Part shown: piece after piece, positions 49,373 to 63,883 of the stretch
Numbering within the stretch: the first letter of the stretch is position 1
Layout of the letters: every line of letters starts with the position of its first letter
From: an uncultured Ignavibacteria bacterium
GTDB taxonomy: Bacteria > Bacteroidota > Ignavibacteria > Tepidaquicellales > OLB5
Length of the DNA: 64,000 nucleotides
NCBI GenBank assembly: GCA_937873695.1
Contig: CALMYL010000028.1
Coordinates: 1 to 64,000 of the forward strand
Direction of reading: 5' to 3'
Translations under genes and position numbers: made by a program
Notes under the pieces: model-generated
The model's input: only the letters and a program-made list of their open reading frames with translations
Told to the model about the DNA's origin: nothing
The model's database searches: none

Positions 49373-52300
49373 TTATTGTATCTGCAGTCTAATATTCAAA
49401 CCGGCTTCATTTGTCGTCCTGGTCGTGATCTGAAGGTTAGAACCGGTCGGTTCTATTTTTGTATATTTATAGAACAACTGCATAGTTACGCTTCTTGAAA
49501 GATTGTACTGTATAGACGGATTTAATGTAGTTGAAGTAGAACCGTTCTGGGAATTGGATTCCCATAAGTTGCTTAAGTAAGACCAAACTTTTGGATCGTT
49601 CTTTGTTCTTGTATAAGAAAAAGAGATCGTAAGGTTGTTTTCAAGTGAAAGACCGAAAAGCGGAAGCGAAAATCCTGATTTGGTAAAGCTGGCATTTATA
49701 GCAATATCATTAGTAGCAGTATTTGTAAGCTTGGCGTTGTTTGGTTCGAAAATAAAATTATTTGTATTGCTCAGTTTAAATGAAGCAGTAAGGTTGCCGC
49801 CTGATATCTGCTTGAAAGTAAAGTTAACGCCTATAAGCGGGGTAAAACCTGATGTTAACGCCTGTGCGCTGATGTATTCGGGTGTCCTGCCGTCATACGA
49901 TAATACTTTTCTGTACTCACTTGAGTAACCGCTTTCAAGAGTAACTGCCTGGGCAATGTTCTGGAACATCTCGAATTTCTCAATTCCGGTTAAAGAGAGT
50001 GTCCAGCTTGGGAAGGGGAATGATACCATGTTCTTTTCAAAATTTTCAGAGAAGAACTGAGCCTGTGTAACACCGGAAGTAGTATCACCCAAAAACCTTC
50101 CAAGTTTATCTTCTATAACTCCTTCTGAAACGAAGAAACTCGGTCTGGTTATTGTCCGGTTTTCAAGTGTATTTATAGGTGTGCCAATAAAGCCCGATGA
50201 GTCTGAATTGTATGTCAGAGAATTTATTGTTCCTGTTCCTGTTTTATAGGTAAAACTTAATTTCAGGTTATCCGGGAAGATCGGATTTATGAAAGTATTG
50301 AATGTATATGAATTGTTCAGATTCAGGTTATCTACCAGGTTCAGCAAGGGAATTCTTCTGCCCGGGTCGGTTTCCCATCCAAGCTGATACATTCTGGATG
50401 GTCCGAGGTTCTCTTTTGAATTGAACTGCATCCAGAAATTGCCGAAACCGGGCCTGCCCTGAATAGCGGGGTTTTGGATCTGTTTGGTTTGCGCGAACGT
50501 AACTGATACCTGGTCAGGTATGAATGTCTTCAATAATTTCAGCAGGTCAGCGGGATTCTGGTCCTGGAATTCATTCTTGGAACCTCCCATTAAGTTGTTT
50601 GACTTTGAAAACAGCTTAAAAATATTATTCAGTTTTACGAATGCTGTTGCCTGAAGATCACTGTTGAAGCCAACGTTGCTGCCTTGCGCATTATTGAATT
50701 GTGAAGCGCGCCAGCCGTAAATGACCCTGTAGCTGCTTGTCAGATCAATGAAATCCCTTAAGCCGGGAATATTGAACTTAGGATTAATGGAAACAGTTTG
50801 TGAGTAATCAAGGTCTTTGCCCCAGTTTATCAAACCGTTATTAAAGAAGATATCATCGTAAATTTCAGCATTGTTTCTCTGAAGTCTCAATGAGTCATTT
50901 GTAGTTTCAAGATAAGTTAAGTCACTGCCTGAGCGGAACGAATAGTCGCCCTGCAGGTCAATCATCCAGTTCTCAATGAACTTCCAGTTCATAGTAAAAC
51001 CGCGGCTCGCATCAAACTGCCTTGAAGTAGGACTGTTGGTAAAACTTGCCCTTAGTTTTTCATCTCCGCGCCTGCGGTTGAAACTTCCCGATAGCGCTAT
51101 GTTGTTTGTAAACAGGGGAGCCAGCGGCATGAACGGGAAGAAGAAATACATTCTTGCTTCCTTGAACTCTTCGCCAAATGGCAGGAATCTTCCGATCTTG
51201 AGGTTAAGTGAATTCATCAGGTCTATATCAGTGCTAAGCCCGACTGAACCGTTCATATCCCATGCATATTTGCTTTCAAGCGTGGGTGTTCTTTCTGTGT
51301 ATGTATTCCTTACAAAATTCACTTCCAGTTTGTTCAGTACCTGCTGAACGAAGAAATTGTCTCCGGGGAATGTGAATTTTGCCCCTGTTATGGAGAACCT
51401 GTTGGCAATCCTTAATGTTTGTGAAGCTACTCTTATCTGGTCAGCATAATATGCAGCAAGCTCCTGGTTGCCGGTTTCTTCAAGTATCTGGGCGTACTTG
51501 TTGTTTGCCGCTGTTTCAAGATCTATATCTGTAGCCGGGAGGTACTTGGGTTTATCCAGTATTTCCTGGTGAGAAAATGAAATGGGCAAAGTAAAGAAAT
51601 CCTTGAATTTAACCGAAACGTATTTTGAAAGCAGTGCATTTATTATCTTATGTGCGTTCACAAGCCCTGAAAACTCCCAGCTGTTCGCGGTAGTTAAGTT
51701 ACCAAAACTGGTTTCAAGTGAATGAAAATTCGGATCAGTTTTGTTATAACTGAAATTCAGTGTTGCAAGATCAGCGATCTTAAGGCCCGCACTAAGAGTG
51801 AAAGCGTAACCGCTCGCATCATTTGTTTTTATAACCCTCATTTCATCGAACCACACAGAGCCCGTGAGTTCGCGGGTGATTATAGGGTCATCATTATTGT
51901 TGTATACCCCAAGCGTGATCTGCCTGACATCCCTGATTGACGGGCTGCCTATAACCCCGTAATACGCTCCCGGCGGACCGTTAACTACCGGCTCGTAATG
52001 AATTAAACCGGTACTGTCAGCTTTCTGTTTAATGGCTGTAAGTTCGCTAAGATTAATGATCACTTCGTTAAATGAATTCCACGGAGTCATCGGTCTGATA
52101 TCGGGCCTGATAGGCGCCCTGTATTCATAATAATTTGATGAATCATTTCCAAGCCTCACAACCACCGCAGCATCATACTTATTTGCATTTGTGTATGTGA
52201 ATGAGCTATCGCCATTGACGAACACTTTGAATATTTTGTAATTTACAAGGTCAATGGGTCTGGTGGCAAAGGACTTGAACACATATTTGCCCTGTCCGGG

Positions 52301-55300
52301 CAGTATATTGGTTACATCAAGAGACATTGACTGCTCGTTGGAAAGTACATTCTGGTCAACCTGTGTCTGGTCTTTCTGTCTTAACCCGTCAACAGGAGGG
52401 GAATAATAATTGGGATTATCTTCAATGTTAACAACCGAAACTGAATATGAAGTATCATTTTTGTTTGATTTAACCCACTGGTTTCCAACAAGATTAAAAT
52501 CTACTATCTTTATCTGTGTCTGCTGTTCAAATCCTTTGAACCAGACTCTTGCATACTGAATGTTTGTTAATGTGGCGCTGCCCACAGTTCTTTTCCATTG
52601 GTCCAGCGGTATTATAAACTGGTACCAGCCTGCATTTCCGCCGCCTGCGACAAACGGGTGATTGGTGAATGAAACCGAATCAAGAGGAATAGAATACTCG
52701 AAATAACTATTTATTATATCCAGGTTGCCGTTATTATTAAGATCTTCAGTATCAATTCGTTTTGCTTCCGTCAGATTAGTAGCATTCTGTTCGGTTCCGT
52801 TGAATGATACATAATTGTTACTACCCTGTATCCATTGGTAATCATCACGACTCGGGTCTCCGCCCGTTTCAGCTGTCAATTCACCATAATAAAAATTTTC
52901 GGCGCTGTTCGGCTGACCGTCAATACCGTTATCTTCACCAACATCCAGCTGGCCGCTGCTGTTTTTATCTTCAGTGTGATAGTTTGTATTCGGATTGGAA
53001 GAATTCAGCGGCATCCGTTTTGATGTAATTATTTTTTCAGAGATCGTTCCAAGATCTATCAACATCTTAGCCGAATCGTTTTGAATAGGTATTCCGCCGT
53101 TAACCTGCATCCACACTTCTATGTAGTTTATATTCTCATCTACCAGATTGGTTTGAGAAGAATTTATGTACTTAAACACTCCGCTCCATTTGTTTTCTGC
53201 AGGCCCTTCAGCGGCAAAATCGCTGTACTTAATATAATTGTAGGCACCAACTGAATCCGGTTTTATATCAAACACCATAGGTGTAAGAGACTGGTTCTGG
53301 TTGCTGGCGATGCTTCGGTTGGGGTAAACTTCAAGAATTGGTACATTGTTCAGCAGGTTATACCAGTTCAGCCTGCCGCGCTTTCTGCTCATCAAACTGT
53401 CACGCACCGCATCTTCAAGAATACCCGGTACAAGTACATTATCATATGGAATAGATGACAAGGTCCACGAAAGGGGATTAAGCCCCAGAGGTATAACCTT
53501 TTTTACGCCTTCAAAATCATCAATGTAGGCAACTGCTTCGCCGTTATCACTGGGGATAATGCTTTTAAGTGTATTGGGGTCAGGCAGCATGAACGCTATT
53601 TCGCCTTTCAGATTCAGTATAGATTCTTCTTTGGTATTATAGCCCGGTATTTTATTTACAAGTTTGGTTAAGAAGTTCGTCTTAATATCTGTTGATGCGT
53701 CAAAACCGATTATAGTATTATTTGTTGGCTCTTCGCCAATTCTTATTTTGTTGTTAAGCGTCTGCTGTTTTAGGTTTATAAGCGTAAAACCCAGATATGT
53801 GGTTTTATTGAACTGAAACTCAGCCCTTGTTCCCAGCAGGGTTTTTGAAGCAAGCTGGAACAGGTCGTTGGTTTCATATGTAATTTTCAGATTTGCGCCT
53901 GCAACCAGGGCCGAAGCATTAATAATTACAAGTTCACCCAGGGAATAATCGATTGAGTAATCAATTCCCTGTGCAAGTTCAACAGTTCCGTTAAATACTT
54001 TTACACTTCCTTCAACAAGATTAAAACCAAGCGAGTATCTTGATGAAGCATCGCCCTTGGCGTTGCCTTTTAAAGTGAATTTCAGGTTTCCGAAATTCTG
54101 TGCGGTTGATTTGGATGAAGTGTAAATTGTGTCATTTTTCCCGATGTAAATATCTTCCACACCTTTTTCACGAAGCGTAGTAGAAAATGGCCTTAGAGAC
54201 GGGAAAATAATATTACCGTTTGCAAGATCAATTGTATTGCCCGGGAAGAAATCGAAATTATTATCGCCGTCAGGCAGAACAGTTGTGGGATCGCCGTTTA
54301 CCCTGTAATCAACGCCGGTTATATTCATATATGTTTTGCCGTTCTTTGGGCCCGTGCCGTTATACTGGGGGGTTGGTGTCTGTCCCGGCTCGGAATAGTA
54401 GATGTTAAATGTCAGATTCGCAGGATCATTTTTTATATTCCTTACCCCAAGATTGTAAATATTCTTCAGCATCCTGTTCCAAAGACGCGCATAATTGGGG
54501 TCCTGGTCAGGCGGCTTCTGGCTTTCGTACCTCAGCAGTTTAAGCTTCAGCATGGCGTTTGATGAAACATCATTTACAAAATCACCAATCTGCTTGCCGC
54601 TTGAAATGGAATCGTTGAATTTGTACGCCACTGCAATAGCATCCTTGCCGTAAGACTGCAGGTTACCGTTAAGCGTAATATAGCCTGCATAGCGGTTCCA
54701 CGTATATTCCGAGGCATCGAGTTTTACAAAATTACCTATCAGTACATGCCCGGGTACGGCGGTAGTTGTATCAGGAAAGAAATATCCTCCTGTGGGTCTT
54801 ACACCAAGAGTATCAAGCCCGTATACAAATCTTTTATTTGGATTGTTGGGCTCAGCATAAACCCAAACCTGCACATCCGTAACATCAATAGGTGTATTAC
54901 CGTTAGTGTAATAACGGGTAAAGTACTGACCCCACGTTTCATCAAGCAGGTAATTGGTTTCGGCGTAATCGTAAATAGAAATATCAAAAGGCGTTTCAAC
55001 CGAACCGCCGGTAATATTTACTTCTTTCTTTTCAGATTTTTTCTGTGATGCGATAGTTGTAAGCGTAAGCGGCCCCAGTTTAAACTGTGCTTTCACGCCA
55101 AACAAAGCCTGCGTACTTCCAATTAAATTAGAACGGGTTTCAAGTGAAACGTTACCGGCCTCTATGAGCTGAATAACTTCATCAGGATAGCCTGTGTATT
55201 TTAGCTTAAGCTGGTTCTCGAATTCAAATGTACGCTGTGAGTTCCAGTCAGCATCCACAGTAAGCTTATCACCAACTGTACCTTTTGTGGTTACCTGTAC

Positions 55301-55990
55301 TTCCTGTTTAAAGTTAATGTTGTTCTGGTTTTGGGATTCAGAAAGAATAGTTGAAAGATCATTGGTGCTGCGCTGGTATGACGCGGTTATATCGATGATA
55401 CCGTTTATTTTCAGATTAATAGTTGGCGGCCCGAAAATTGTCTCCGTGGCAAACGGCAGGGGAATGGTAATTTCCGTGATATTCTTGAACAGCTTTTCAA
55501 GGTCATCCTGTGTTTCTATCTGGAACTTATCCGAAACGATCCTGTAGAACTGGTCTTTAAGACCTAACTGGCTTCTTAGCTCAATATATTTATCCAATGG
55601 TATAACAAGGGGAACTTTAAGCTGCTCGTTATCTATTGATTCTGTTATGATAACATTATCAAGCGAATCAAACTTAACGCTGTAATTTATCTGGGATGAA
55701 CCATAGAGCAGTAAAGAAGAACGCCAAACGCCGTAATCAGGTACTGGTTCATCTACTCTTTCAAACTTAAAATTGTTTACCCTTGCAGTCGAGTCAATGG
55801 GACCCCTGATCTTTGTTGTATCGCTTATTAATGAGGTATCAATGTAAGAGCCGGATGTATCAATGAACCCGATCTGGAACTTACTTCTATCCCTGCCCTG
55901 AGCGAAAGTATCTTTGAATGTGCCTATTCCTGCCATAAAACATACGGCAAGCAGCAGATACTTAATGTAATTGGTTTTATATTTTAACAA
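49373..55990 (-). CDS. sprA: Cell-surface protein SprA, T9SS outer-membrane translocon
   Basis: The 2,205-aa protein has an N-terminal signal peptide (cleavage near TFAQ) and the large, aromatic-rich beta-strand content of SprA. Recognised blocks include EAGNVSLETRSNLIGSTQAL (SprA N-terminal) and AYIDDFEGVKKVIPLG. SprA is the 36-strand outer-membrane barrel through which T9SS cargo with C-terminal sorting domains exits, and is needed for gliding in gliding species. Flavobacterium SprA is about 2,400 aa, so this one is slightly shorter. The three NPFNP-domain proteins in this window are plausible cargo. Confidence 0.94.
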   Translation of the reverse strand: MLKYKTNYIKYLLLAVCFMAGIGTFKDTFAQGRDRSKFQIGFIDTSGSYIDTSLISDTTKIRGPIDSTARVNNFKFERVDEPVPDYGVWRSSLLLYGSSQINYSVKFDSLDNVIITESIDNEQLKVPLVIPLDKYIELRSQLGLKDQFYRIVSDKFQIETQDDLEKLFKNITEITIPLPFATETIFGPPTINLKINGIIDITASYQRSTNDLSTILSESQNQNNINFKQEVQVTTKGTVGDKLTVDADWNSQRTFEFENQLKLKYTGYPDEVIQLIEAGNVSLETRSNLIGSTQALFGVKAQFKLGPLTLTTIASQKKSEKKEVNITGGSVETPFDISIYDYAETNYLLDETWGQYFTRYYTNGNTPIDVTDVQVWVYAEPNNPNKRFVYGLDTLGVRPTGGYFFPDTTTAVPGHVLIGNFVKLDASEYTWNRYAGYITLNGNLQSYGKDAIAVAYKFNDSISSGKQIGDFVNDVSSNAMLKLKLLRYESQKPPDQDPNYARLWNRMLKNIYNLGVRNIKNDPANLTFNIYYSEPGQTPTPQYNGTGPKNGKTYMNITGVDYRVNGDPTTVLPDGDNNFDFFPGNTIDLANGNIIFPSLRPFSTTLREKGVEDIYIGKNDTIYTSSKSTAQNFGNLKFTLKGNAKGDASSRYSLGFNLVEGSVKVFNGTVELAQGIDYSIDYSLGELVIINASALVAGANLKITYETNDLFQLASKTLLGTRAEFQFNKTTYLGFTLINLKQQTLNNKIRIGEEPTNNTIIGFDASTDIKTNFLTKLVNKIPGYNTKEESILNLKGEIAFMLPDPNTLKSIIPSDNGEAVAYIDDFEGVKKVIPLGLNPLSWTLSSIPYDNVLVPGILEDAVRDSLMSRKRGRLNWYNLLNNVPILEVYPNRSIASNQNQSLTPMVFDIKPDSVGAYNYIKYSDFAAEGPAENKWSGVFKYINSSQTNLVDENINYIEVWMQVNGGIPIQNDSAKMLIDLGTISEKIITSKRMPLNSSNPNTNYHTEDKNSSGQLDVGEDNGIDGQPNSAENFYYGELTAETGGDPSRDDYQWIQGSNNYVSFNGTEQNATNLTEAKRIDTEDLNNNGNLDIINSYFEYSIPLDSVSFTNHPFVAGGGNAGWYQFIIPLDQWKRTVGSATLTNIQYARVWFKGFEQQTQIKIVDFNLVGNQWVKSNKNDTSYSVSVVNIEDNPNYYSPPVDGLRQKDQTQVDQNVLSNEQSMSLDVTNILPGQGKYVFKSFATRPIDLVNYKIFKVFVNGDSSFTYTNANKYDAAVVVRLGNDSSNYYEYRAPIRPDIRPMTPWNSFNEVIINLSELTAIKQKADSTGLIHYEPVVNGPPGAYYGVIGSPSIRDVRQITLGVYNNNDDPIITRELTGSVWFDEMRVIKTNDASGYAFTLSAGLKIADLATLNFSYNKTDPNFHSLETSFGNLTTANSWEFSGLVNAHKIINALLSKYVSVKFKDFFTLPISFSHQEILDKPKYLPATDIDLETAANNKYAQILEETGNQELAAYYADQIRVASQTLRIANRFSITGAKFTFPGDNFFVQQVLNKLEVNFVRNTYTERTPTLESKYAWDMNGSVGLSTDIDLMNSLNLKIGRFLPFGEEFKEARMYFFFPFMPLAPLFTNNIALSGSFNRRRGDEKLRASFTNSPTSRQFDASRGFTMNWKFIENWMIDLQGDYSFRSGSDLTYLETTNDSLRLQRNNAEIYDDIFFNNGLINWGKDLDYSQTVSINPKFNIPGLRDFIDLTSSYRVIYGWRASQFNNAQGSNVGFNSDLQATAFVKLNNIFKLFSKSNNLMGGSKNEFQDQNPADLLKLLKTFIPDQVSVTFAQTKQIQNPAIQGRPGFGNFWMQFNSKENLGPSRMYQLGWETDPGRRIPLLNLVDNLNLNNSYTFNTFINPIFPDNLKLSFTYKTGTGTINSLTYNSDSSGFIGTPINTLENRTITRPSFFVSEGVIEDKLGRFLGDTTSGVTQAQFFSENFEKNMVSFPFPSWTLSLTGIEKFEMFQNIAQAVTLESGYSSEYRKVLSYDGRTPEYISAQALTSGFTPLIGVNFTFKQISGGNLTASFKLSNTNNFIFEPNNAKLTNTATNDIAINASFTKSGFSLPLFGLSLENNLTISFSYTRTKNDPKVWSYLSNLWESNSQNGSTSTTLNPSIQYNLSRSVTMQLFYKYTKIEPTGSNLQITTRTTNEAGLNIRLQIQ

Positions 55991-57026: not shown

Positions 57027-58517
57027 ATGCTGGAATACAAAATTTACATAAACGGTGAGTTCAGGGATGCATCCGATAAAGGAACGATGGATTCAATAAA
57101 TCCCTACGATAAAAGCGTTTTCGCGAAGCTTGCCAAATCAACTGTTGAAGATACCAAACTTGCCATTAAAGCCGCAAGGAATGCCTTCGATAGCGGCGTA
57201 TGGACAGGTAAAACAAATGAAGAGCGCAGCGTAATATTAAAACAAATTGCTGATAAGATAAAAGAAAATTCCGCAATGCTGCAGGAATTGGAAATTCAGG
57301 AATCAGGCTCAACTTACAAGAAATCAAAGGACGATATGTTTTTAACATATCGTGCTGCAAGCACTTTCGCAAAACTTGCGCTCACCGATCTCAATGAAAC
57401 ACTGGATATTTCTAAAGAAGGTGTAAGCAAAAATCTATTGGTGCGTGAACCCGTGGGAGTTGTTTCAGCTATCATTCCGTGGAACTTCCCGCTGCAAATG
57501 GCAATGTGGAAAATAGGACCCGCTTTAGCCGCAGGCTGCACTATAGTGCTGAAACCCGCACCTGAAACATCAGTCAGCGCGCTTGAACTTGCTAAGATCA
57601 TTGATTCAACCGACCTGCCAAAGGGTGTTGTTAATATTATTACAGGTGATGCGGAAGTTGGCGAAGAGATGGTAACAAACCCGATGGTTGATAAGGTCGC
57701 TTTCACCGGGTCAACTGAAATTGGCAGAAAAGTAATGTCACTTGCTTCGGCAACGATGAAAAGTGTTACACTTGAGCTTGGCGGCAAATCAGCAAGTATA
57801 ATTTTAGATGATGCTGATCTGGATCTGGCAATAGATGGTTCAGCTTACGCGGGATATTTCCATAACGGGCAGTGCTGTGTGGCGGGTTCACGTTTAATTT
57901 TAACCAACAAGAATTACGATGAAGTTGTTGAGAGATTAAAAGCCAAGCTTGCCAAAATGAAAATAGGCAATCCGATGGATAAGGATACTGATATTGGTCC
58001 GATGGTAAGCGAAAAACAGCAGAAGCGGGTTTTGGAGTATATTGAAATAGGAAAAAAAGAAGGCGCGAAACTTGTTTATGGCGGGGGAGTGCCTAAAGGA
58101 TTTGAATCAGGCTGTTATGTAGAACCGACATTGTTTGCTGATGTTAGTAATGATATGCGAATTGCGCAGGAAGAAATTTTCGGTCCGGTGCTTGCTGTTA
58201 TAAAGGCTGAGAGTGAAAATGACGCAATACGTATAGCAAATGCTTCAAGCTTCGGTCTTGCAGGCGGTGTATGGTCACGCGACAACGACCGCGCGCTTGA
58301 TGTAGCAAAGCAACTGAGGGCCGGTACTATATGGATCAACGAGTGGCACATCCTCAATGATAAAGCGCCGTTTGGCGGTTACAAGCAAAGCGGAGTTGGC
58401 AGAGAGCTTGGCATTGAAGGATTGAAAGCCTACACAGAAGTTAAGCACATTCACATTGATGAAGTGCTTGACCGAAAGAAGAAATTCTGGTATAATGTTA
58501 CAGTGCCGCAGGATTGA
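57027..58517 (+). CDS. Aldehyde dehydrogenase, canonical NAD(P)-dependent
   Basis: The 496-aa protein is a complete classical ALDH. Glu250 (VTLELGGK) is the general base and Cys284 (GQCCVAGSR) the nucleophile; PWNFPL and FTGSTEIG bind the cofactor. The C-terminus ends FGGYKQSGVGRELG followed by YTEVKHIHI, the betaine/phenylacetaldehyde-type arrangement. The substrate cannot be told. Unlike the ALDH near deoC it has no ALDH16-like N-terminus. A hairpin terminator follows at 58,563. Confidence 0.93.
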   Translation: MLEYKIYINGEFRDASDKGTMDSINPYDKSVFAKLAKSTVEDTKLAIKAARNAFDSGVWTGKTNEERSVILKQIADKIKENSAMLQELEIQESGSTYKKSKDDMFLTYRAASTFAKLALTDLNETLDISKEGVSKNLLVREPVGVVSAIIPWNFPLQMAMWKIGPALAAGCTIVLKPAPETSVSALELAKIIDSTDLPKGVVNIITGDAEVGEEMVTNPMVDKVAFTGSTEIGRKVMSLASATMKSVTLELGGKSASIILDDADLDLAIDGSAYAGYFHNGQCCVAGSRLILTNKNYDEVVERLKAKLAKMKIGNPMDKDTDIGPMVSEKQQKRVLEYIEIGKKEGAKLVYGGGVPKGFESGCYVEPTLFADVSNDMRIAQEEIFGPVLAVIKAESENDAIRIANASSFGLAGGVWSRDNDRALDVAKQLRAGTIWINEWHILNDKAPFGGYKQSGVGRELGIEGLKAYTEVKHIHIDEVLDRKKKFWYNVTVPQD

Positions 58518-58562: not shown

Positions 58563-58592
58563 AAGGCGGCCTAAAAGGGGACGCCTTTTTTT
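58563..58592 (+). terminator. Rho-independent terminator after ALDH
   Basis: AAGGCG and CGCCTT form the stem, with inner CC/GG pairs around TAAAA, followed by a T-run. The core CCTAAAAGGG recurs in the terminator at 62,365. Confidence 0.88.
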
Positions 58593-58621
58593 ATGACCCA
58601 AATCATTCTTCTGTCTTAATT

Positions 58622-58690
58622 GGTATATTATATTTGTAATGAATCTATAAATACCATAGCAAACTATAGATACCCGAGCCTTTCTGCTGA
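58622..58690 (+). repeat. 69-bp direct repeat, copy 1
   Basis: Matches 60,630-60,698 with three mismatches, and the 57 bp at 58,626-58,682 are identical. It contains TATATTTG and an internal 11-nt direct repeat (CTATAAATACC, CTATAGATACC). It ends 166 bp before the likely ATG of the first surface-protein gene. The rest of the gap 58,518-58,856 holds only the terminator and no visible gene. Confidence 0.93.
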
Positions 58691-58856
58691 AGTATAACTT
58701 CTTTTCTCGATTTGAAGATCATTTTATGCTTGACAATTGACAACAAATATTGTAATTTGTTATTGACAAATATAAGTATAACCCGAATCCTTTGAGTTTA
58801 CTGTGAAAACGGGAAAACGAACCAAACTGAGACACACCGATTTATTTTTTAAAAAT

Positions 58857-60344
58857 ATGAGAAAAATACCTGAAAAACTTGTAAATTTTATTAATGCTAA
58901 AGCATTTAGTTTTGTCTTGGTATTAATCGGTATTGTATGCAGTGCAAGTTTTGGACAAAGTATAACCTGGCAAAGAACTTTTAATGGGCCAGCAAATTAT
59001 AACGACAGAGCATATTCATTAACACCGGCTGATGGCAATAATTTTTATGCAGTCGGAAGAACAATTGTAAGCGGATATTACCATTATATTTTAAAGCTAA
59101 ATGAATTTGGTGATACCCTCTGGACCAGAAGTATCCAGATAAATCCTGGTTTTGGGGATTTTAGTTTAAGTTCTGTAACAGATGGAACAGGTGGAGTTGT
59201 TGTTACCGGTGATAATGATACGAGTTTTACTATGAAGCTTGATAAGAATGGAAATATTATTTGGTATAAAAATTATAATACAATAGCCGCAAAATGTTAT
59301 AGCATAATTAAGAAAATCGATGGTGGCTATATCTCTTGTGGTTTTAAACTAAGTTCTGATTACTATGGTTATGTACTTAGTATTGATTCATCGGGAAATT
59401 TGTTATGGCAGAGAGAATATCCTTCAACCGAATTGAGAATTTACCATGACCTAATAGAAAATTTTGACGGTTTTTATCTTACAGGCAGCGTTACAGATGC
59501 TATTGTTGATACTAATCATGTTTTATTGACGAAAATTGATATTTTTGGTGAAGTACAGTGGGAAAAGAGATATACTATATTTGGCAAAGATGGAAATGGT
59601 AAAAAAATAGCAAGATTGAAAGATAAGATAATTATTGCAGGCACAACAACGGATTCAATTTTAAACCAGGCAAGAGGTTATATTATGGAATTAGATACTA
59701 TTGGTAATGTTGCTCGTACAATAGTATTTCCATCAAACAGAAGTGAAAGCTTACAAGACATGCTTATATTAAATGAGAGTAGATTGCTTTTAATTCTTAC
59801 GAGAGATTCAACATTTAATATAAGTACAACAAGGGTAATTATAACAGATTTATCCGGAAATATCGTAAATGAAAAACATTTTATACCTCCACAAAATGAA
59901 GGAGATATACACTTGGTTTCCGGAATGAAAACGAGTAATGGTGACTTATTATTTGCAGGTAACAGTTATATTGATACAAACGCTACCAGTGAAGACGTTT
60001 TTGTTGCCAGAACAGACAGCATGTTATATGTACCTCCAATTGCAATCATTAATTCAAACTCACAAATACCAAAAACATTTGAAATTTCAGAGCCTTTTCC
60101 TAATCCATTTAATCCAGGCACAAAAATAGTTTATAAACTAAATAAAAACACTAACATTAGTATAAATATTTATGATATAAATGGAAGATTTGTAAAAGCT
60201 TTAGTAAATGGTTTTAAAAAATCCGGCACATACATTCTGAATTTAGAACTTGATGAAAATAAATATTCAAGTGGCATATATTTTATTAGTTTTGCTTCAA
60301 ATAATAATTATATAGTAACTAAGAGGCTCATTTACATTAAGTAA
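58857..60344 (+). CDS. Secreted T9SS-sorted repeat protein, 495 aa
   Basis: From the ATG at 58,857 the protein has a signal peptide (about residues 1-30, cleavage after SFGQ). The body consists of ~55-residue beta-propeller-like repeats with D(T/S)xGNxxW and GGY/GG patterns. The C-terminal ~85 residues are a type A sorting domain with PNPFNPGTK. It should be exported by the T9SS and attached to the surface or released. An in-frame GTG at 58,803 gives 18 more residues, but these precede the signal peptide, so I prefer 58,857. The DNA is AT-rich. It is related to the 60,873 gene but diverged. Confidence 0.85.
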   Translation: MRKIPEKLVNFINAKAFSFVLVLIGIVCSASFGQSITWQRTFNGPANYNDRAYSLTPADGNNFYAVGRTIVSGYYHYILKLNEFGDTLWTRSIQINPGFGDFSLSSVTDGTGGVVVTGDNDTSFTMKLDKNGNIIWYKNYNTIAAKCYSIIKKIDGGYISCGFKLSSDYYGYVLSIDSSGNLLWQREYPSTELRIYHDLIENFDGFYLTGSVTDAIVDTNHVLLTKIDIFGEVQWEKRYTIFGKDGNGKKIARLKDKIIIAGTTTDSILNQARGYIMELDTIGNVARTIVFPSNRSESLQDMLILNESRLLLILTRDSTFNISTTRVIITDLSGNIVNEKHFIPPQNEGDIHLVSGMKTSNGDLLFAGNSYIDTNATSEDVFVARTDSMLYVPPIAIINSNSQIPKTFEISEPFPNPFNPGTKIVYKLNKNTNISINIYDINGRFVKALVNGFKKSGTYILNLELDENKYSSGIYFISFASNNNYIVTKRLIYIK

Positions 60345-60371
60345 TATTCCCTAAATTAAAACTGGATAATC

Positions 60372-60647
60372 ATGAAAACTTTATACAAAATTTTATTCTG
60401 TTTTTATTTTTTGATAACTTTAAATTTGTTTACTCAGGATGAGGAACCACCACCTTATACAGGAGAAATAAAAATTGTTAACCAATCTACTACCCGTACT
60501 ATTTATGTAAAAGTGTATCCGGTAAGTATGCTTTTTAACGGATATGGTTTTTATGATCTGCATACTAGATATCCAGATGATGAAGATACAAATACATATC
60601 ATTATATGACAGGAGTTTATCTCAGCTCCGGTGTATTATATTTGTAA
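60372..60647 (+). CDS. Small exported protein, probably truncated, 91 aa
   Basis: A signal peptide (about residues 1-22) is followed by EEPPPYTGEIKIVNQSTTRTIYVKVYPV, a beta-strand-like start of a longer domain. The last five codons and the stop lie in the second 69-bp repeat, so the original 3' end may have been lost when the repeat arrived. I do not recognise a family. It is 27 bp after the surface-protein gene. Confidence 0.6.
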   Translation: MKTLYKILFCFYFLITLNLFTQDEEPPPYTGEIKIVNQSTTRTIYVKVYPVSMLFNGYGFYDLHTRYPDDEDTNTYHYMTGVYLSSGVLYL

Positions 60648-60698
60648 TGAATCTATAAATACCATAGCAAACTATAGATACCCGAGCCTTGATGCTGA
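60630..60698 (+). repeat. 69-bp direct repeat, copy 2
   Basis: Nearly identical to 58,622-58,690 (2,008 bp apart, same orientation). It ends 174 bp before the likely start of the second surface-protein gene, and its first 18 bases form the end of the 91-aa frame. The sequence between each repeat and the following gene is not similar, so the repeat alone is shared. Confidence 0.93.
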
Positions 60699-60872
60699 TT
60701 TTCCGCAAAAATTAAATAATTTTTAAATTAAGCGCATTTATTTTTTGCTTTAATGTTGTAAAAAGCCAAAAAGTGTATTATTTTAATTAAATTACTGCAA
60801 AATTACTGTTGATAAAATGATGGTATCATTTTAGAAACCTTGTTTCTAAGGCGAAAAAAGAATTTAATTAAA

Positions 60873-62315
60873 ATGATAATTATGAAAGAAAAAACTCAAA
60901 TTCAATTGAAATCAATCAAAAATCCATTAATATTTGTTGGTTTAGAGATAATGTTTTCATTATTAATAATATCCACTTTTCAGTCTCAAACAATAACCTT
61001 TCAGAAAACTATTCTGGCGCCTGATATTGAATATTTCACATCCGTTGTACAAACACCAGATGAAGGATATATTGCTGTAGGCAGAAAGCGTGAATCAGGG
61101 ATTAGAGATGATATGTACATTGTAAGGTATAATAAATTCGGGGATACGCTTTGGAGTAAAACCGTAGAAGTGGAGTTAGCTGAATGCATAATAAAGACAC
61201 TCGACAATAATTATCTTATATGCGGTCACGAAGGCAGTCTAGTAAAAATAAATCAAAATGGAGATATTTTACAGATAAGGCCATTTTTAGGATATGACTT
61301 TTTAATAATTACTACAGTTTTGCAGACTAATAGTGGTAACTTTTTTATTTGCGGCACACTTAGATCAAATCTTGACAGTCCTTATTTAGCAAAATATGAC
61401 AATAATTTAAATTTAATTTTTGATACATTGTATAACACAAATCGTTTTGATGGTGGCTTTTCAGGTATGATATTATCAAGGGATTCAAATTTAATATTAG
61501 TTGGATATCATAAAATACTTGTCAGTTCTCCTTTAAACTTATATTTAACAAAAATAGATCATAGCGGAAATGTATTTTGGGAAAACACTTTTACTCAGCA
61601 GCCTAATTTAATTACAAGAACAATTGCACGGACGAATGGAAATAACTATATAATCGGAGGATATAAATTTCTTGCAAAATTTGATTCGACAGGCAATAGT
61701 ATTTGGTATCAAAAAATTGACTCAATATTTAATAATCAGATTAATGATATTAAACTTACAAATGATAATAATTTTATTATGTCAGGATGGTTATATGACG
61801 GGAATAATGCCTTTGCAAGAATAAGAAAAATTGATTCTAATGGAACAACAATATGGGTTCGGTCTCATGGCTTTATAAATCGAAACAATGAAATACGAGC
61901 TATTCAGCAAACACTTGATTCCGGATTTATTTGTGCAGGTGTAACTGATTCAAGCAGTGAGGACACATATTTACTAAAAGTAGATAGTGAAGGAAATTTG
62001 TATCCAATTGGTATAAATATTATTTCTACAAATTTACCATATAGATTTGAATTATTTCAAAATTATCCAAATCCTTTTAACCCTAAAACAAACATCAAAT
62101 ACGAAATTCCGAGGGATGTAAATGTAAGCATCAAGATATATGATAAACTAGGTAAAGAAGTATTCAGTTATAACGAATACAAACTTGCAGGAAGCTATGA
62201 AGTTCAGTTTGACGGCACGAATCTTTCCAGTGGTATGTATTTTTATAAGATGGTTGCAGAGACGTCCCAGCGGGACGTCTTTACAGATACGAAGAAAATG
62301 GTGCTTCTTAAATAG
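60873..62315 (+). CDS. Secreted T9SS-sorted repeat protein, 480 aa
   Basis: A signal anchor-like region (about residues 15-40) is followed by beta-propeller-like repeats with GDTLWSKTV and GNVFWENTF patterns, related to the protein at 58,857. The C-terminal ~90 residues form a type A sorting domain with NYPNPFNPKTN and end KKMVLLK. It should be T9SS cargo. The frame is open from a TTG at 60,840, but the ATG at 60,873 (or 60,882) is the likely start. A 21-nt palindrome inside the sorting domain adds about five residues. Confidence 0.85.
   Translation: MIIMKEKTQIQLKSIKNPLIFVGLEIMFSLLIISTFQSQTITFQKTILAPDIEYFTSVVQTPDEGYIAVGRKRESGIRDDMYIVRYNKFGDTLWSKTVEVELAECIIKTLDNNYLICGHEGSLVKINQNGDILQIRPFLGYDFLIITTVLQTNSGNFFICGTLRSNLDSPYLAKYDNNLNLIFDTLYNTNRFDGGFSGMILSRDSNLILVGYHKILVSSPLNLYLTKIDHSGNVFWENTFTQQPNLITRTIARTNGNNYIIGGYKFLAKFDSTGNSIWYQKIDSIFNNQINDIKLTNDNNFIMSGWLYDGNNAFARIRKIDSNGTTIWVRSHGFINRNNEIRAIQQTLDSGFICAGVTDSSSEDTYLLKVDSEGNLYPIGINIISTNLPYRFELFQNYPNPFNPKTNIKYEIPRDVNVSIKIYDKLGKEVFSYNEYKLAGSYEVQFDGTNLSSGMYFYKMVAETSQRDVFTDTKKMVLLK
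62260..62280. repeat. 21-nt perfect palindrome inside a sorting-domain coding region
   Basis: AGACGTCCC-AGC-GGGACGTCT is a perfect 9-bp inverted repeat in frame in the C-terminal domain. It encodes ETSQRDV, interrupting the usual short turn before FTDTKKMVLLK. Confidence 0.8.
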
Positions 62316-62364: not shown

Positions 62365-62394
62365 AAAGGCGATCCTAAAAGGGTCGCCTTTTTT
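62365..62394 (+). terminator. Rho-independent terminator
   Basis: AAAGGCGATCC pairs with GGGTCGCCTTT (one T-G pair) around loop TAAAA, then a T-run. It ends the surface-protein transcript and shares its core with the terminator at 58,563. Confidence 0.92.
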
Positions 62395-62518: not shown

Positions 62519-63883
62519 TTGAAAGACGTACTCGAAAATACTCTGTTACAAACTTCGTCAGATATACGGATTAATACTCCTATAGACTTTAATATAGTTA
62601 AACAGAAGATCGAAGAATCAAAACTGCCTTGTGTAGGCAAAGCATCAATCAGAGAAATCAGATCCCTTATCAATCAAATAGAAAAAGCTAGCGGTAAAAA
62701 ATTCATAAGGATGGAAATGGGCGTGCCCGGACTTCCTGCTTCTGAAATAGGCGTAAACGCTGAAATTGAAGCACTTAAAAAAGGCGTAGCCAATGCTTAT
62801 CCTGAAATTGAAGGCATCACTGAATTAAAACGTGAAATATCAAGATTCATAAAGCTGTTTTTAGATGTCGATGTTCAGGAAAAGTCGTGCATACCCTGCA
62901 CAGGCTCAACCAGCGGAAGCTTTGTTACTTTTTTAACGCTTGCAAGGGCTGATAAGAACAAAGATACCGTTCTGTTTTTAGATCCGGGTTTCCCCGTTCA
63001 CAAAATGCAGCTGAAGGTTCTTGGTATAAACCAGACGAACATTGATGTTTATAAATTCCGCGGAGAAAAACTGCGCGATGCGCTTGAAGAAAAATTAAAA
63101 GCCGGCAATATTTCATGCCTTCTGTATTCAAATCCAAACAATCCTTCATGGATTTGTTTTACAGATAAAGAGCTCAAGATAATAGGCGAGCTTTGCACAA
63201 AGTATGATGTTATCCCGATAGAAGACCTTGCGTATTTTAACATGGATTTCCGCAAGGATTATTCCAAACCCGGCACGGGACCCCACCAGCCATCTGTTGC
63301 GAAGTATTGCGATAATTACATGATACTGGTTTCGGGTTCAAAGATATTTTCTTATGCAGGGCAGAGGATTGGCTGTATAATAATTTCAAATGAACTTTTT
63401 AAACGCGATTACCCTGATCTGCTCAGGTATTTCTCGAGCCCGAATTTCGGTCATACAATGATATTCGGTGCAGCTTACTCCGTAAGCGCGGGTGTAACAC
63501 ACTCCACCCAATATGCATTTGCAGCATTGCTTAAAGCTGTGAATGACGGCGACCATGACTTCATCAAAGAGGTTAAGATATACGGTCACCGTGCAAAGAA
63601 AATGAAGAAGATGTTCCTCGATAACGGCTTCAGGATAGTTTATGACCATGATGACGGCGAGCCTATTGCAGATGGTTTTTATTTCACAGTAGCGTATGAT
63701 GGTTATTCAGGTGAAGACTTAATTGAGCAGTTGTTATACTACGGCATCAGCGCAATATCGCTCAGCAATACGGGCAGTCTGCGCAAAGAGGGTATTAGAG
63801 CATGTGTATCGCTGGTACATGATTCACAGTTACCCGAGCTTGAAGAAAGATTAAAACTGTTTCACGAAAATCATAAAAAATAA
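62519..63883 (+). CDS. PLP-dependent class I/II aminotransferase
   Basis: The 454-aa protein has the fold type I aminotransferase pattern: FLDPGFPVHKMQ, SNPNNPSWICFTDKEL, IEDLAYFNMDF with the Asp that contacts the pyridine nitrogen, and the Schiff-base Lys in SGSKIFSYAGQRIG. The N-terminal ~70 residues are an extension before MEMGVPGLP. The start is a TTG at 62,519. Substrate unknown. Compared with aspartate aminotransferases, the class cannot be refined by eye. Confidence 0.9.
   Translation: MKDVLENTLLQTSSDIRINTPIDFNIVKQKIEESKLPCVGKASIREIRSLINQIEKASGKKFIRMEMGVPGLPASEIGVNAEIEALKKGVANAYPEIEGITELKREISRFIKLFLDVDVQEKSCIPCTGSTSGSFVTFLTLARADKNKDTVLFLDPGFPVHKMQLKVLGINQTNIDVYKFRGEKLRDALEEKLKAGNISCLLYSNPNNPSWICFTDKELKIIGELCTKYDVIPIEDLAYFNMDFRKDYSKPGTGPHQPSVAKYCDNYMILVSGSKIFSYAGQRIGCIIISNELFKRDYPDLLRYFSSPNFGHTMIFGAAYSVSAGVTHSTQYAFAALLKAVNDGDHDFIKEVKIYGHRAKKMKKMFLDNGFRIVYDHDDGEPIADGFYFTVAYDGYSGEDLIEQLLYYGISAISLSNTGSLRKEGIRACVSLVHDSQLPELEERLKLFHENHKK

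Follow-up and report, generated by a model that had tools for sequence, protein, structure and literature searches.

Introduction

Two direct repeats of 69 bp, each followed by a gene for a putative surface protein, lie close together near the end of the window, the 64,000-nucleotide stretch of an uncultured Ignavibacteria bacterium analysed here, and raise the question of whether such a pair is a recombination device, an inserted element or a part of the genes that it precedes. A first-pass annotation of the sequence had proposed either a shuffling or phase-variation unit or a shared long leader. To our knowledge, proteins with T9SS tails are very numerous in Ignavibacteria, and hardly any has an assigned role; a literature search for T9SS surface families of this group found no paper.

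The comparison covered 13 genomes of one genus, several of them fragmented metagenome assemblies: the window's own (G000) and twelve further ones (G001–G012). W1 (58857–60344) and W2 (60873–62315) denote the two genes behind the repeats, and C11, C12, C15, C17, C20 and C30 denote loci on other contigs of G000; in relatives, G5_C128, for example, is contig 128 of G005. All window features given below are on the forward strand.

Results

Positions 58622–58690 (copy 1) and 60630–60698 (copy 2) are direct repeats, identical at 66 of 69 nucleotides (96%) and offset by 2,008 bp, with an unbroken identity of 57 bp (58626–58682 in copy 1), exactly as first annotated. A 43-nucleotide core of the repeat, with up to three mismatches allowed, matched the window twice and gave no match in 100 shuffles. 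The ATG of W1 (58857) lies 166 bp past copy 1 and the start of W2 (60873 or 60882) 174–184 bp past copy 2, in agreement with the earlier figure of about 170 bp, and the stretches that link each repeat to its gene show little similarity in this pair, as had also been noted (43–62% identity per 60-nucleotide bin). The assumption of only two copies did not hold. The genome carries seven copies on six contigs, all in sense orientation relative to the gene and all about 170–290 bp 5′ of a QSITWQRT β-propeller gene whose product ends in a sorting domain of T9SS type A. The search of genome and relatives that the annotation had recommended found many copies, most of which precede such propeller genes in the relatives as well; they are therefore not absent elsewhere. 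Outside the genus, 26 other genomes of the order gave no convincing match to the repeat, with one 22-nucleotide hit only. Some loci of the family (G009 C1:3049, G009 C2:3051 and both ends of G004 C44) are found close to the end of a contig, each time at a matching distance, so the repeats probably break assemblies.

The conservation exceeds the 69 bp. Upstream of copy 1 only, within this pair, it extends to a CRP/FNR-type dyad, ATGACCCAAATCAT (TGA-N6-TCA, 58593–58606), whose position is conserved in other promoters of the family, and at the other copies it continues downstream across the leader and the signal peptide. In most copies, ATGACnCAAATCATTGTTCTGCC stands upstream of the repeat and includes TGA-N6-TCA, with its half-sites spaced as in CRP/FNR sites, and in nearly all of them 22 nucleotides separate the 14-nucleotide dyad from TATATTTG. 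The latter (58629–58636 in copy 1) fits the −7 promoter element of Bacteroidota, TAnnTTTG, which was mapped at −12 to −5 in Flavobacterium psychrophilum (PMC9723704). If this convention is applied, although it may not be that of the host, transcription from copy 1 would start near 58641, and the dyad centre would fall at about −41.5. CRP/FNR proteins classically act as class II activators from this position, which the dyad of copy 1 would occupy given the predicted start; no such dyad is found upstream of W2. Copy 1 would thus hold the promoter core and leader start of W1, and copy 2 those of W2 with the dyad missing (box score 28/51). These comparisons give good support to reading the repeat as the promoter-proximal start of a conserved 5′ module composed of a putative dyad, promoter, leader and signal peptide. 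The earlier suggestion of a shared long leader with the promoter-like octamer TATATTTG is borne out by all seven genome copies and most copies of the relatives, which precede the same family.

The module is not invariant. The perfect combination of dyad and promoter is present in five of the seven copies; C15 has one mismatch, and copy 2 lacks the dyad. A more distant relative, C17, shares only the dyad, with one mismatch, and the promoter. In G010, where the leader is otherwise different, a comparable dyad with unchanged spacing can be read before its three family genes, and the copies at G005 C128 and G011 C95 have neither dyad nor promoter. Co-regulation of the family is therefore not uniform. 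The predicted leader of W1 (58641–58856, about 216 nucleotides) is long in comparison with the medians of 24–32 nucleotides reported for other Bacteroidota. In several leaders, including that of L005 and window positions 60808–60838, GATAAAATGATGGTATCATTTTAGAAACCTTGTTTCTAAGGCG (two small hairpins) stands just before the start codon, and other leaders carry a different hairpin, ACTTTCATTTTTTGAAAGT, in its place; since the two alternate at the same place, this part of the leader also looks exchangeable. A search of 2.9 million viral contigs for the dyad-leader string, made with a phage origin in mind, gave no occurrence.

The two genes occupy a slot between conserved neighbours. Its left border is a gene of 496 aa (57027–58517), which we take to be aldehyde dehydrogenase-like, with proteins 86–98% identical in 10 relatives, and it ends in a terminator-like hairpin with a T-run (58563–58592). 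The 5′ module begins directly after this T-run, at the junction CGCCTTTTTTT|ATGACCC. On the right, a second terminator hairpin (62365–62394) forms with the left one a 44-nucleotide repeat of 70% identity; beyond it, from ATGCTTAATGCC on, the sequence of the empty site resumes, and the comparison of the slot in relatives places the right border at a presumably aminotransferase-like gene (62519–63883). The slot is empty of propeller genes in six relatives, five of which (G011, G005, G009, G001 and G012) have a terminator only and one (G010) a gene of another kind; the empty sites of G011 and G005 contain one terminator of the window type. In G002, G008 and G004 it holds other propeller genes. 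It may have been filled in G000 through gain there or emptied in the relatives through loss, and short homology between the terminators is a possible route of insertion.

Between W1 and copy 2 lies an ORF of 91 aa (60372–60647), which had been annotated as a gene but is the truncated 5′ remnant of a larger one of roughly 500–1050 aa. At several loci, propeller genes are followed by open frames of about 200–1050 aa, and the ORF resembles the N-terminal portion of their products. In the window its frame enters copy 2 and ends at a stop codon inside the repeat, so that a junction at about 60626–60630 removed the rest of the larger gene together with the dyad of W2.

The W1 protein starts with a signal peptide (58857–58955; helix at residues 6–32 in the model), followed by Gln, the first residue of QSITWQRT. 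Here we define the core as the segment of about 1.1 kb from this Gln up to the sorting domain. In W1 it spans 58956–60089 and is predicted to form a seven-bladed β-propeller of 28 strands, and the T9SS type A sorting domain with the stop codon occupies 60090–60344 (TIGR04183, E = 2.8e-11; PF18962, E = 7.3e-11). W2 (60873–62315) likewise consists of a signal peptide, a core from 60987 and a sorting domain from about 62058. Both proteins exceed the curated cut-offs, with 43.2 bits for W1 and 33.1 for W2 against TIGR04183 (cut-off 23) and 42.7 and 40.7 bits against PF18962 (cut-off 27). Family members share a hydrophobic N-terminal helix and a Gln after a cleavage-like site, which fits a Sec signal peptide and the Q-rule, by which Gln follows the signal peptide (PMC5837995). 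A SprA-like ORF of 2205 aa is present in the window at 49373–55990. The W1 and W2 products are predicted to be T9SS type A cargo.

AlphaFold2 modelling on 21 family proteins (mean pLDDT 82, pTM 0.71) gives the signal helix, 28 strands, a linker of low confidence and a C-terminal β domain, and the strand number is consistent with seven propeller blades. A fold search of the PDB returned generic propellers only, with CylK as the best match. The genome gave at least 168 matches, mostly to the sorting domain; among these, the full-length relatives of W1 and W2 are the repeat-preceded loci. A single family protein used as a query found only two loci, in Ignavibacteria bacterium UBA2360, one of which is the slot of G002. 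The proteins resemble the Delta-60/SBBP propeller proteins with a Por secretion tail (TIGR02608, TIGR04183, LipL53-like SBBP) in joining propeller repeats to a T9SS type A tail, but their matches to TIGR02608 and LipL53-like SBBP are weak, and no named family covers them. The C20 gene (L080, G000 C20:112063 onwards) has an in-frame TGA just past QSITWQRTYD, with dyad, promoter and leader kept, and is probably a pseudogene; the family gene of G004 C8 has a TAA inside the core. In W2, a REP-like palindrome, GACGTCCCAGCGGGACGTC (62261–62279), lies in the part encoding the sorting domain and contributes the residues TSQRDVF, which gives the impression of an in-frame insertion of a palindromic repeat.

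According to their upstream flanks, by which slots were mostly matched, loci of different species occupy common chromosomal slots, and the cores found there disagree with the slots. Cores from the same slot were non-orthologous in 15 of 16 comparisons (24–36% identity), and most of these mismatched cores have counterparts of 60–95% identity at other slots. In the C12 slot, three genomes carry three kinds of core, which are of the C12 type in G000, the W1 type in G011 and the C11 type in G005; the G005 and G011 copies there are those without dyad and promoter. Between C15 and G11_C225, identity is 76–93% in the flank, 64–84% in the leader, 38–62% in the core and 83–92% in the sorting domain and downstream. 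The core of G5_C128 is 95.7% identical in DNA to that of C11 in G000 (1091/1140), a similarity that begins at the Gln codon and ends at the sorting domain. Reference sequences of G005 and G000 reach only 88.7% (aldehyde dehydrogenase), 87.8% (aminotransferase) and 88.9% (slot flank); this core exceeds the species-level identity, indicating that it was transferred between species after their split.

The same mosaic structure is seen within G000. Between the end of the repeat and the Gln codon, W1 and C30 share 268 of 271 nucleotides (98.9%), and their cores are 48.9% identical. The core of W1 matches G011 C225 and C95 at 73–74% aa identity, and the leaders and sorting domains of these loci are unlike those of W1; the core of W2 is 80–81% identical to that of G011 C202. 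In trees of 22 loci, the 5′ module groups W1 with C30 (support 99/94), and the core groups W1 with G11_C225 (100/100). AU tests reject the exchange of these groupings between the trees with p = 9e-146 and 3e-50, values that are descriptive only, as the tested clades were picked after viewing the trees and profiles. Along the genes, DNA identity changes abruptly at two places, the QSITW codon and the sorting domain; the propeller family displays incongruent segment histories with sharp breakpoints, and the earlier statement that the history of the repeats differs from that of the paralogues is upheld by the conflict between the trees.

We observed a clear difference between the two segments in how similarity is distributed among 35 loci. 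Over the 250 nucleotides upstream, similarity was 96.0 bits within genomes vs 37.9 bits between them (0 of 5000 permutations), a contrast against which the search itself worked, since many loci were first found through leader similarity and the between-genome leader scores are raised. For the cores, the values were 123.1 bits within and 127.6 bits between genomes (2939 of 5000 permutations). Overall, the sequence comparisons support well the conclusion that propeller cores have been swapped between positions and species by recombination, with the gene ends mostly staying in place. The identical 57 bp of the window may be a product of the homogenisation of 5′ modules within the genome, or the two adjacent 5′ ends may have exchanged sequence recently.

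The arrangement of dyad and promoter is not restricted to this family. G000 contains 48 sites with TGA-N6-TCA followed after 22–24 nucleotides by TAnnTTTG, and the reversed-pattern control gave none. With spacings of 8–38 nucleotides allowed, there were 112 matches, 32 of them at spacing 23 and 13 at spacing 24, the other spacings averaging about 2. Most sites fall outside long ORFs. Examples of the 48 are C20:189371, C23:57902 and C29:4662. Among the genes behind the sites are those for pyruvate:ferredoxin oxidoreductase (PFOR), tryptophanase, NADP-glutamate dehydrogenase (NADP-GDH) and the Fe-S repair protein RIC, and further those for sulfide:quinone reductase, YfhL-like ferredoxins, PntA, AsnA, a heavy-metal ATPase and a Crp/Fnr regulator. 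The genome has four Crp/Fnr genes, one of which has an FNR-like best match and a CxxC...C motif near the N-terminus, and another adjoins RIC. Many of the 48 sites precede genes of fermentation, redox metabolism and NO repair, which makes a regulon of the FNR type likely, and an FNR-like activator likely controls the propeller family as well.

Discussion

We consider it very probable that conserved 5′ modules drive a dispersed family of propeller genes and that recombination replaces the cores in their slots; FNR-like control of the family is likely. A regulator of the CRP/FNR family, most likely FNR-like, would bind the dyad and activate from the class II position, so that the propeller genes would be expressed together with a fermentative and redox regulon. 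Recombination at the two conserved ends, the signal-peptide/QSITWQRT junction and the sorting domain, has replaced the core of about 1.1 kb in place, and the 5′ modules have been homogenised within genomes. Homologous recombination with DNA from other species would act over evolutionary time and diversify the displayed or secreted part, with control and export held constant. A stronger form of this idea, in which promoterless copies serve as silent donors, the gene ends serve as anchors and cores enter FNR-controlled slots in living populations, appears to us rather unlikely.

The reading of the repeats as a phase-variation or shuffling device, in which recombination between them removes W1 with the 91-aa ORF and leaves W2 with an intact dyad and promoter, is permitted by the geometry (57 identical bp in direct orientation), and the missing dyad of copy 2 means that such a deletion would hand W2 a full promoter. 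We nevertheless judge it quite improbable: the copies stand at dispersed single-gene loci, an identical stretch of 57 bp is on the short side for homologous recombination to occur often, and the predicted product, W2 alone behind the intact dyad and promoter, was absent at this slot in the relatives. No sign was seen of the deletion suggested in the first-pass annotation. Nor does the pair resemble an invertible promoter or shufflon, since inverted repeats were looked for at copy 1 and not found, and no recombinase gene was recognised among the ORFs beside the pair. Shuffling stands at the level of the family, where the core, bounded by the signal-peptide end and the sorting domain, is the unit; it falls for the segment between the repeats. 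Old gene duplication followed by differential loss, and no intragenic recombination at all, would also give mismatched slots and cores, and pseudogenes in this multi-copy family (C20, G4_C8) make loss plausible. It conflicts with the breakpoints that individual genes show on either side of the core, where flanks and sorting domain follow one lineage and the core another, and with a core closer between species than their orthologous genes, which leaves it a very slim chance.

The multi-copy, dispersed repeat with slot occupancy differing between species might also suggest a small mobile element, such as a MITE, inserting upstream of genes. The orientation and position of the copies before one gene family are constant, the dyad and promoter element keep a fixed distance, the conserved sequence continues into the leader and the signal peptide, and what is present or absent is the complete gene module rather than just the repeat. 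Terminal inverted repeats were not found at copy 1, and no copy with target duplications was seen away from the QSITWQRT family in the genome, so the probability of a MITE or IS is close to negligible. A structured cis-regulatory RNA, such as a riboswitch or thermometer, would account for the long leader, the strongly conserved motif CCCGAGCCTTGATGCTGA and the fold of the single sequence (z about −1.7). Against this, the consensus fold of 14 diverse leaders has three pairs and no compensatory change, the Rfam search of the leader gave no match, and the middle of the leader varies freely; a conserved covarying structure is thus not seen in this set, and we give this reading a slim chance.

The preferred explanation, core replacement behind constant 5′ modules, has partial counterparts in known systems. 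In Kgp, RgpA and HagA of Porphyromonas gingivalis (PMC5266723), T9SS surface proteins are likewise diversified by domain rearrangement and allelic exchange, and the mosaic does not follow the phylogeny, there of strains. Those are few loci in one species, whereas here a dispersed family across species occupies conserved slots, with the 5′ module and sorting domain constant and the propeller core replaced. Replacement flexible genomic islands (PMC4033161) and the S-layer cassette of C. difficile share with the slots the presence of different variants at one position and exchange by homologous recombination in conserved borders, but in the propeller family the borders lie inside the gene, and many slots per genome share one core pool. 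The apparent design is one of constant control, constant export signals and an exchangeable propeller, and comparing slot history with core history should allow similar families to be detected in other phyla related to Bacteroidota. If cores do switch within populations, surface variation of a new type would exist outside pathogens.

As regards control, the dyad position and the anaerobic, fermentative and NO-repair genes behind the sites resemble the class II promoters of FNR/CRP, which in E. coli FNR have a TGA-N6-TCA dyad at about −41.5 (PMC3688515). The differences are the Bacteroidota element TAnnTTTG, the predicted status of the regulator and the inclusion of a surface-protein family, which would tie such a family to an apparent anaerobic and redox regulon. 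Among the dyad-preceded genes, the sulfide:quinone reductase at L193 (G000 C6:50280 onwards) matches the NCBIfam model of a selenoprotein subtype with 639 bits, and a TGA-encoded selenocysteine is possible in this protein.
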